Shown here piece after piece: positions 34,801 through 36,382 of a stretch of 54,612 bases of DNA. This DNA comes from Bacteroides sp. (lineage in GTDB: Bacteria; Bacteroidota; Bacteroidia; Bacteroidales; Muribaculaceae): contig JAAVCX010000038.1 of the NCBI GenBank assembly GCA_014802105.1, positions 1 to 54,612 of the forward strand, given 5' to 3'. The notes under the pieces are model-generated. The model was given only the letters and a program-made list of their open reading frames with translations. It had not been told where the DNA came from and did no database searches. Position numbers and translations under genes: made by a program. How positions within the stretch are numbered: position 1 is the first letter of the stretch; each line of letters starts with the position of its first letter.

Positions 34801-34936
34801 AGTCAATGTGAATTTGATCGTTTTATGACATGCTGTCGAAGTAATTGCAAAGATACAGATTTGAATTGAATAATAAAACGGGTTGATTGTATTTGGATGT
34901 TTAGGAATGAACAATATAGGAAACTTAATATGAAAT

Positions 34937-35157
34937 TGTACTAATAAAGGTGTAAAATATGATATTGTACCTAATATAGTACAAAATATATAAATGTACT
35001 ATATATAGTCTAAAATGTGATAGTGTACTTTCAGTAGTACAAAGTAAAAATATGTACTATTAAAGGTAAAAATTGAGAAAATGTACTGTAGATAGTATAA
35101 AACGTAAAAATGTACTGAGTGTGGTTTAGTTTTAAAAAATGTTCCGAGTAAGGAACA
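34937..35157 (+). repeat. Eight dyad operator-like repeats at exactly 29-bp period
   Basis: Units start at 34937, 34966, 34995, 35024, 35053, 35082, 35111 and 35140, each exactly 29 bp apart. Each is an 18-bp dyad TGTAC-N8-GTACA: units 2 and 4 are perfect, the last is TGTTC-N8-GAACA (also perfect), others keep the left half with a weaker right half. Column 14 (G) and 18 (A) are invariant. The 11-bp spacers differ in sequence but are A-rich. The last unit covers the -33 position of the ATPase promoter. Confidence 0.9.
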
Positions 35158-35164
35158 ATTTTAT

Positions 35165-35172
35165 TATCTTTG
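35165..35172 (+). promoter_or_regulatory. -7 element of the AAA+ ATPase promoter
   Basis: TATCTTTG. The -33 position (about 35141-35144) is occupied by the last repeat unit rather than by TTTG, suggesting regulation by whatever binds the array. Start near 35179, giving a leader of only about 10 nt. Confidence 0.65.
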
Positions 35173-35188
35173 CAAATAAATCAGAATT

Positions 35189-36382
35189 ATGGACATTTTA
35201 AGAAGAAGATATAAGAAACTGTTGTCAGATGTAAAGACTGATACTCACAGGTTTCTGTTCTATGAAATAGATTGGAATCAACCGCTTATAGGAATAAGGG
35301 GACAACGCGGAGTTGGCAAGACGACCTTGATGTTCCAGCGGATAAAGGAGACAGATCCCACCGGGGAAACGTCATTTTATGCTTCTCTCGACAGCCTATG
35401 GATTGCCGAGAACAGTCTGATAGAATTTGCCGAGAAACTTGTAGAGCAGGGGGTAAAACATCTCTATCTTGACGAGGTGCACAGACTGCCTGAATGGGAG
35501 AGGCAGATTAAAAATCTATGTGACTTGTATCCCGAATTGCACATAGTCTTCACGAGTTCGTCGCTGCTTGTGGTCGATCACTCGATCGGCGACCTGTCGA
35601 GACGTGCCTCCATGTATGATCTTCCCGGATTATCATTCAGGGAGTTCCTGATGTTTGAAGGCGTTTCTCCCGGCGAAAGACTGACACTTGCCGACATACT
35701 CTATTCCCACGAGACCATAGCCGCGTCGATCGCCTCGTCGGTTGACGTACTCGCTTATTTCAAGAAGTACATGTCGAGAGGTTATTATCCTTTTTACAGG
35801 TCTATGGGGCTTGAAGACTACTATGGACGCCTGGATCAGACAGTCAATACCGTCATCAATTACGACATCCCGTCGGTGGAGGTGAGGATTGACTACGAGA
35901 CGCTGATCAAGGCCAAGAGGCTTGTCGGTATCATAGCCGGCTCGCAACCCTATCAGCCCAATATGAGCACCCTTGCCGGACTGATGGGCACAAACAGAAA
36001 CCAGCTCCTGAAAATCTTTGATCTGCTTGACAGGGCCGGTGTGATCAGACAGGTGTTTTCTGCAACTATCAGTCCCAAGAGTCTCGGTAAACCCCAGAAG
36101 ATACTGCTTGACAACTCGTCGCTCATGTGTGCTTTAGGTTCGCCAAAAGTAGGAGCGGAGAGAGAATGTACGTTCGCATCATTCCTGAGTGTGAACCATC
36201 GGGTAGGTTATGCTAAAGCCGGCGACTTTATTGTCGATAACCGGTATCTGTTTGAGATCGGAGGCAAGAGCAAAGGCTTTTCACAGATAAAGGATATACC
36301 CGACAGCTTTATAGTGGCCGACGATATCGAGTTTGGCTTAGGTAATAAAATTCCGTTGTGGATTTTCGGTTTTTTATATTGA
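35189..36382 (+). CDS. AAA+ ATPase (AAA_14/DUF4143 type)
   Basis: 397 residues. Walker A GQRGVGKTTL (38-47), Walker B HLYLDEVHRL (Asp95, Glu96), a FTSSS sensor-1-like strand (121-125), then LSFREFLMFEG typical of AAA_14, a winged-helix-like segment (LAGLMGTNRNQLLKIFDLLDRAGVI, about 266-290) and a DUF4143-like C-terminus with the nuclease-fold-like pattern GDFIVDNRYLFEIGGKSKGFSQI. The family is widespread, often multicopy, of unknown role. Codon and base use is more AT-rich at the 5' end than in neighbours. Immediately upstream is the 29-bp repeat array, suggesting autoregulation. Confidence 0.88.
   Translation: MDILRRRYKKLLSDVKTDTHRFLFYEIDWNQPLIGIRGQRGVGKTTLMFQRIKETDPTGETSFYASLDSLWIAENSLIEFAEKLVEQGVKHLYLDEVHRLPEWERQIKNLCDLYPELHIVFTSSSLLVVDHSIGDLSRRASMYDLPGLSFREFLMFEGVSPGERLTLADILYSHETIAASIASSVDVLAYFKKYMSRGYYPFYRSMGLEDYYGRLDQTVNTVINYDIPSVEVRIDYETLIKAKRLVGIIAGSQPYQPNMSTLAGLMGTNRNQLLKIFDLLDRAGVIRQVFSATISPKSLGKPQKILLDNSSLMCALGSPKVGAERECTFASFLSVNHRVGYAKAGDFIVDNRYLFEIGGKSKGFSQIKDIPDSFIVADDIEFGLGNKIPLWIFGFLY

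Follow-up and report, generated by a model that had tools for sequence, protein, structure and literature searches.

Eight phased dyads on the promoter of a predicted defence ATPase gene of Bacteroides sp., probably its private operator

The window, by which we mean the whole analysed stretch of 54,612 nucleotides of Bacteroides sp. DNA (contig JAAVCX010000038.1), contains two divergent genes separated by an intergenic region of 388 bp, in which an array of dyads is located. The gene on the forward strand (35189..36382, with its ATG at 35189) codes for P0001, an AAA_14 ATPase of 397 aa that matches the PADLOC system PDC-S01 and has a putative C-terminal PD-(D/E)XK-like motif. The reverse strand carries the gene of P0002 (33793..34800), which we take to be an aldo/keto-reductase-like protein and which lies outside the unit formed by the ATPase gene and the array. 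The likely -7 box of the ATPase promoter, TATCTTTG, is found at 35165..35172 on the forward strand. It was assigned from the sequence, on the assumption that TAnnTTTG is the Bacteroidota consensus, and boxes of this type were found at 76 repeat-bearing loci. The -7 regions of P0002 and of the ATPase gene (34842-34855 and 35165-35178) are nearly identical and mirrored, i.e. they form an inverted repeat.

The array consists of eight 18-bp units on the forward strand: TGTACT-N6-GGTGTA (34937..34954), TGTACC-N6-AGTACA (34966..34983), TGTACT-N6-AGTCTA (34995..35012), the perfect dyad TGTACT-N6-AGTACA (35024..35041), TGTACT-N6-GGTAAA (35053..35070), TGTACT-N6-AGTATA (35082..35099), TGTACT-N6-GGTTTA (35111..35128) and, next to the promoter, the perfect dyad TGTTCC-N6-GGAACA (35140..35157), which covers the place expected for the -33 box. 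The period is exactly 29 bp with zero indels, as the first-pass annotation had stated for the span from 34937 to 35140, and it is well beyond chance. The self-identity of the region 34901-35190 is 0.58 at a lag of 29 and 0.57 at a lag of 58, compared with a maximum of 0.48 in 1000 first-order Markov shuffles over lags 15-59, and the left arms of the eight units score 45/48 while the best of 1000 shuffles reaches 29. With 10.5 bp per turn, one period of 29 bp makes 2.8 turns, and in straight B-DNA consecutive dyads therefore do not share the same face of the helix.

Conservation within the units is uneven. Columns T1, G2, T3, C5, G14 and A18 are identical in 8/8 units and A4 and T15 in 7/8, whereas the spacer columns 7-13 reach 6/8 at most. 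Six of the eight left arms read TGTACT, while those of the second and the last unit are TGTACC and TGTTCC. The right arms are weaker and only RGTNNA-like. Hence, the earlier description of TGTAC-N8-GTACA dyads with conserved half-sites and differing spacers stands for the six invariant arm columns and for the variable spacers, but its full form is found in only two units (34966 and 35024). Elsewhere the right arms are mostly degenerate, and TGTACT-N6-RGTNNA is the better formula. The change of the last unit in both arms, at the place of the -33 box, is borne out by the sequence, and a symmetric promoter-adjacent unit is also present at a related locus, L020. A degenerate ninth unit that had been suspected at 34908 is not supported: it scores 6/12 versus 8-12 for the eight units. 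Of 117 offsets tried in the intergenic DNA next to the array, 13 score at least as high, and so do about 10% of shuffles. CRISPR arrays are built of near-identical repeats of about 23-47 bp and unique spacers. Here only short arms are kept within each 29-bp unit and the array terminates on the ATPase promoter, which agrees with the initial view that it is not a CRISPR array. What lies at the locus is thus a set of repeated dyads that covers the promoter of its own gene.

P0001 exceeds the gathering score of AAA_14 (PF13173) with 86.6 bits against a cut-off of 27. For DUF4143 (PF13635), no match of P0001 is listed at E values up to 1; 25 of its 31 homologues match this family at the same limit (best 4e-7), as do, over the cut-off, all ten of the other family members compared. 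In alignment A1 of P0001 and its relatives, D346, E356, G358 and G359 are present in at least 90% of the sequences and K362 is invariant, so that the C-terminal part appears to carry a nuclease-like PD-(D/E)XK motif. The PADLOC HMMs of PDC-S01 match P0001 at 5e-18 and all 31 members of the alignment. Ten of ten further family members also match, and their best models (6e-179 to 1e-28) are all stronger than that of P0001. P0001 is therefore a predicted defence ATPase of the PDC-S01 type. The AlphaFold2 model of P0001 has a mean pLDDT of 91.5 and shows a winged-helix-like part, assigned from the helices and strands of the model. The predicted winged helix spans residues 236-307 (35894..36109 on the forward strand), and the helix of residues 270-282 is its likely recognition helix. 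HTH_11 is found in 14 of the 31 homologues at E values up to 1. Some genomes have very many such genes: G052 has 18 AAA_14 matches at E values up to 1e-10 and G107 has 16 at up to 1e-25.

It is the ATPase that such arrays accompany, rather than the genes around it. Six loci, L008, L009 and L019-L022, code for relatives that are 70-80% identical to P0001. All have three or four dyads of similar form that are 29 bp apart and end at the promoter, with the consensus TTGTNC(C/T)-N6-(A/G)GNACAA and variants thereof. The gene neighbourhoods of these relatives are five others, unlike that of the window, and contain genes that we take to be pyruvate oxidoreductase-like, kinase-like, glycan-related, pta/ackA-like and formiminotransferase-like. 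P0002, in turn, is present in 22 of 27 genomes of the genus, and ATPase relatives of at least 48% identity are present in four, the own genome included. No ATPase match was seen in the examined flanks of the 21 other P0002 orthologues, and these loci have zero to two window-type dyads each, compared with 11 at the window locus. This type of array has thus followed the ATPase into differing neighbourhoods and is absent beside the P0002 orthologues in the flanks examined, which supports the original link between array and ATPase. A search of viral contigs for three TGTACT motifs at 29-bp intervals gave five stretches, of which at least two were, by eye, runs of near-identical copies and not dyads. 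The ATPase was found at three loci in these contigs, and none had a repeat above z 3. The ATPase search returned one record among phages and 29 among plasmids.

The upstream regions of many ATPase genes were scored by their best ungapped direct or inverted repeat relative to shuffles, with the line drawn at z>5. The genes were chosen by a Walker A pattern within an open frame of 330-560 aa, with the start codon set by rule, and 12 of 152 loci gave no gene under this selection. Loci L001-L037 include some that had been inspected before the test was fixed, and L079-L168 were retrieved before inspection as the 30 best matches and 60 picked further down that list. The first run scored 140 ATPase genes, 66 of which exceeded the line, as against seven of 93 ordinary genes from twelve 20-kb stretches and the window. 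In these seven the score comes from repeats with short units, from hairpins or from repeats of unclear type, and the Walker A pattern of the gene selection is absent from all of them. In the second run, from which one gene with an N run was excluded upstream, the line was exceeded upstream in 69/139 cases, downstream in 27/136 and in the gene body in 0/140 (for direct repeats alone: 48/139, 12/136 and 0/140). The downstream control is not clean, as its 27 cases comprise 18 by inverted repeats, which are perhaps terminators, and 12 by direct repeats.

By group, the upstream score exceeds the line in 12/14 genes of the own genome and genus, 45/89 of the family sample (L079-L168), 11/21 of other Bacteroidota and 1/15 of other phyla. 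A phylum-wide sample gave 8/26 upstream, 1/26 downstream and 0/26 inside. In three genomes outside Bacteroidota, 2/19 genes exceed the line upstream and none downstream (5 versus 3 at z>3); by eye, the sets of 15 and 19 share three genes. In the own genome, the AAA_14 genes L001, L002, L004 and L005 each have repeats of their own sequence, and none were seen by eye at L006, presumably ClpX. Upstream tandem dyads or repeats are hence a rule of this ATPase family in Bacteroidota that holds, strongly, for about half of the genes; the signal outside the phylum is weak. The first-pass annotation had named homologous ATPase genes without phased dyads as evidence that would speak against it, and on this point the outcome is divided: about half of the Bacteroidota genes have repeats above the line, but the other half and most genes outside the phylum fall below it. 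The array of the window is a long case of this wider pattern in one phylum, its close relatives having three or four units. The frequency of tandem sites at this family in Bacteroidota and their association with the ATPase support the idea that the dyads are bound by protein dimers. Several layouts differ from that of the window. At L001 (1337-1450; G000:C10 of the own genome) the third repeat copy overlaps the ATPase start codon, and L101, L123 and L130 have, by eye, an L001-like layout at 40 bp. Outside Bacteroidota, L278 and L284 have a single long near-perfect hairpin at the promoter instead of tandem dyads.

The spacing of the units falls into a few classes of about 22, 29, 32-33, 40, 43 and 75 bp. 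A direct repeat with z>3 was present at 59 of 139 loci, where spacing was taken as the best lag only and likely multiples (58, 64-68 and 80) were left unfolded. The best lags were 28-29 (5 loci), 32-33 (16), 39-41 (11), 43 (3) and 73-77 (6), and the remaining ones were 58 (2) and 64-68 (4), which are likely doubles, and 12 others. Nine more lags from the phylum sample were 22, 22, 23, 32, 32, 33, 34, 36 and 42. When each of 54 genes was compared with its nearest labelled protein partner, 25 shared the spacing within 1 bp, whereas 5000 shufflings gave a mean of 7.4 and a maximum of 18; for partners of less than 70% identity only, the spacing was shared by 18/54 and the maximum of 5000 shufflings was 17. 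Reciprocal pairs are counted twice in both figures. Most operators differ within these pairs; a clear resemblance between operators is seen only when the proteins are more than about 65% identical, and below this it is near background. Spacing therefore seems to outlast the sequence of the site, as is expected if the geometry of the bound protein sets the spacing. At the longest spacing, L116, L119, L126, L143 and L149 (proteins of 416-428 aa) have one dyad on each side of the promoter, 73-77 bp apart, a layout such as that of a repression loop; the direct score of L143 is below z 3.

The sequences of individual sites look private to each gene, at least for the three operators tested. In genome G019, the L013 dyad, TCCCTCANTGAGGGA, occurs three times without mismatch, each time in the L013 promoter; a single further site, which has one mismatch, lies elsewhere. 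The L145 dyad, TTTCGANTNNANTCGAAA, has four sites in G026, all in the L145 promoter at spacings of 40, 39 and 40. With one mismatch allowed, the L012 dyad has two sites in G016, both in the L012 promoter. For the type of dyad found in the window, the pattern TTGTNCY-N6-RGNNCAA has one site in the own genome (G000), in the array, and its backwards control also has one. It matches the ATPase promoters of G000, G082, G083 and G085, whereas in G020, G021 and G084 the arms are different and the promoters are missed. In the six genomes other than G000 there are also matches elsewhere, mostly no more frequent than those of the control; in G082, four of seven forward sites lie outside the ATPase promoter versus one for the control. 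The dyad TGTACTN6AGTACA, with up to two mismatches, has 33 sites in the own genome, five of them in the array, and the reversed pattern has 116. As the backwards pattern is the commoner one, no genome-wide regulon of the window dyad is seen in the own genome. One and the same perfect dyad, TTGTACCGAATTCGGTACAA, is present once in each of two genomes of the genus, at L182 (G020:C7:28301-28320) and L183 (G021:C40:6161-6180), away from the ATPase.

The position of the repeats relative to the promoter was determined for the 76 of 90 repeat-bearing loci that have a TAnnTTTG box. The repeats cover the -33 region at 54 of these loci, the part between box and start at 26 and the start codon at seven, and the coverage is highest between -60 and -10, ahead of the -7 box. 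Such a peak over the promoter indicates an operator, and the role in partition or DNA wrapping that had been considered at first is not indicated. The layout would suit a repressor, and repression appears to fit best because some loci have sites on or beyond the transcription start. Dyads located only upstream of the transcription start, e.g. over the -33 region, those of the window included, could also be bound by an activator.

The most likely explanation, which we consider probable but far from certain, is that the eight dyads serve the adjoining ATPase gene as a private operator and that the ATPase binds its own array and represses itself. Many genes of the family in Bacteroidota carry such a private row of sites at the promoter, which probably allows each protein to turn off its own gene. 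We infer that the ATPase is itself the binding protein and that it acts as a repressor and not as an activator, and likewise any release by a trigger and any role in defence.

It is unlikely that a separate transcription factor of the host occupies the array and controls the gene in place of the ATPase. That tandem operators can serve the dedicated repressor of a defence island is known from RptR (PMC12255303). We also compared the likeness of operators with the identity of local protein segments, and the partial correlation, corrected for overall identity, peaked at residues 141-210, 361-390 and 1-30, with no peak at the winged helix of P0001, which counts against the explanation above and would suit a separate factor. 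Such peaks could also arise if rapidly changing regions just reflect recent kinship more closely, and a matched comparison of protein regions with operators gave only small differences everywhere. The part of the ATPase that determines DNA specificity may also be elsewhere than in the winged helix. Within one of the peaks, residues 161-190 (35669-35758) are only 13-19% identical in pairs of proteins that are about 48% identical overall. A separate factor is difficult to reconcile with the own genome, in which L001, L002, L004, L005 and L007 differ in their repeats, so that this reading calls for as many as five dedicated factors. Furthermore, no common neighbour gene was seen in the 1.5-2.5 kb flanks of L007, L008/L009, L019, L020, L021 and L022, and for each of the three operators tested the genome contains no exact site outside the promoter concerned.

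Alternatively, the array could serve as a store or nucleation point, which keeps the ATPase-nuclease inactive, or assembles it into a filament, until a trigger arrives, with autoregulation being secondary. Eight sites exceed the need of simple repression, and a unit of 29 bp suggests a helical arrangement. The P0001 model resembles STAND-type and CED-4-like oligomerising ATPases, and all 31 alignment members match PDC-S01. However, the close relatives L008, L009 and L019-L022 manage with just three or four units, the sites are located on promoters, and both filaments and trigger are hypothetical here. We therefore regard this possibility as quite improbable.

That the array is a product of neutral tandem duplication, or a transcribed hairpin such as a terminator or leader RNA, is very improbable. 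Some old duplication is likely, since the lag of 58 is as strong as that of 29, and unit 8 is called terminator-like on both strands. On the other hand, the spacers vary while six arm columns are invariant without an indel, many relatives have a similar layout with unrelated sequences, there is no Rfam match at gathering scores, and the array units precede the -7 box and thus lie outside the ATPase transcript, which counts against a hairpin. Least probable of all is the control of P0002, or of both genes, by the array: it does lie within the intergenic region that they share, but the P0002 orthologues elsewhere have neither the ATPase in their examined flanks nor such an array, and the ATPase relatives keep theirs beside other genes.

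If the ATPase does bind its own array, the following mechanism can be envisaged. ATPase dimers would bind the dyads through the predicted winged helix and fill the sites one by one along the DNA, starting with the symmetric site at the promoter. Neighbouring dimers would touch each other at a set distance, and in this way the geometry of the protein would fix the spacing. A rising amount of product would occupy more sites and shut off its own transcription, and the number of sites would determine how sharp this response of the gene is. Repression would then be lifted in the ATP-bound state or by a trigger, for example infection by a phage. Because the site sequence is particular to each paralogue, cross-regulation among the many that share a genome would be avoided. 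A broader proposal is that the PDC-S01 proteins of Bacteroidota and their private operators make up a very large set of orthogonal pairs with cooperative helical rows and a spacing typical of the subfamily (29, 32-33, 40, 43 or about 75 bp), and that the self-bound state is both autorepression and a resting defence ATPase-nuclease, released on infection. As a whole, we consider this doubtful.

Several known systems resemble parts of this arrangement. Type II toxin-antitoxin systems are compact, autoregulated cassettes with a cognate operator at the promoter. The ATPase gene is also compact and has its own operator at the promoter, but it is a single gene with no antitoxin partner seen in the flanks and up to eight phased dyads. 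The best matches in a structure search with the P0001 model were the archaeal ATPases SSO1545 (2fna) and PABY2304 (2qen), which are 13-15% identical to P0001, and we know of no operator for either of them. The AAA+ domain of mycobacterial IniR has been compared with SSO1545, and IniR binds a promoter; it differs in having a MalT-like sensor and a separate DNA-binding domain and in inducing another operon (PMC5760070, as far as its available text goes). A further parallel is RptR, by which a defence island of E. coli is autorepressed via promoter repeats. According to the accessible portion of PMC12255303, several repeated palindromes over the promoter mediate the autorepression of defence genes there too, but there the repressor is a separate protein, whose single conserved site, TAGCTA, recurs in three 9-bp repeats. 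In the present case, the presumed repressor is the ATPase itself, the sites vary from gene to gene, and the spacing is mostly 29-43 bp. No published account of arrays at these ATPase genes was found in the literature searched, a scope that leaves out most subscription journals and bioRxiv preprints. In summary, autoregulation by tandem operators is known, whereas one private operator per ATPase, together with classes of spacing within a family that is both very common and unexplained, appears to be new.

PDC-S01 is a 'phage defence candidate' of PADLOC, derived by guilt-by-embedding and, in the available part of PMC12988326, the fourth most common defence across all prokaryotes; in the available part of PMC13356809, it ranks first in frequency among the individual loci of rumen genomes. 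The first of these accounts describes an architecture of an ATPase plus PD-(D/E)XK, as in P0001. In the parts of both that were available operators go unmentioned, and regulation is absent from that of PMC12988326, whereas operator arrays are described here. The family is thus very common, yet without a tested function or regulation in the sections of the literature examined. With a private operator at each gene, the family becomes directly accessible to experiment, as the operator names the DNA for a binding assay. Such operators also suggest that the amount of protein stays low as long as there is no need for it, and they would explain how many paralogues coexist in one genome. If confirmed, these genes and their operators would constitute a large natural library of orthogonal repressors.
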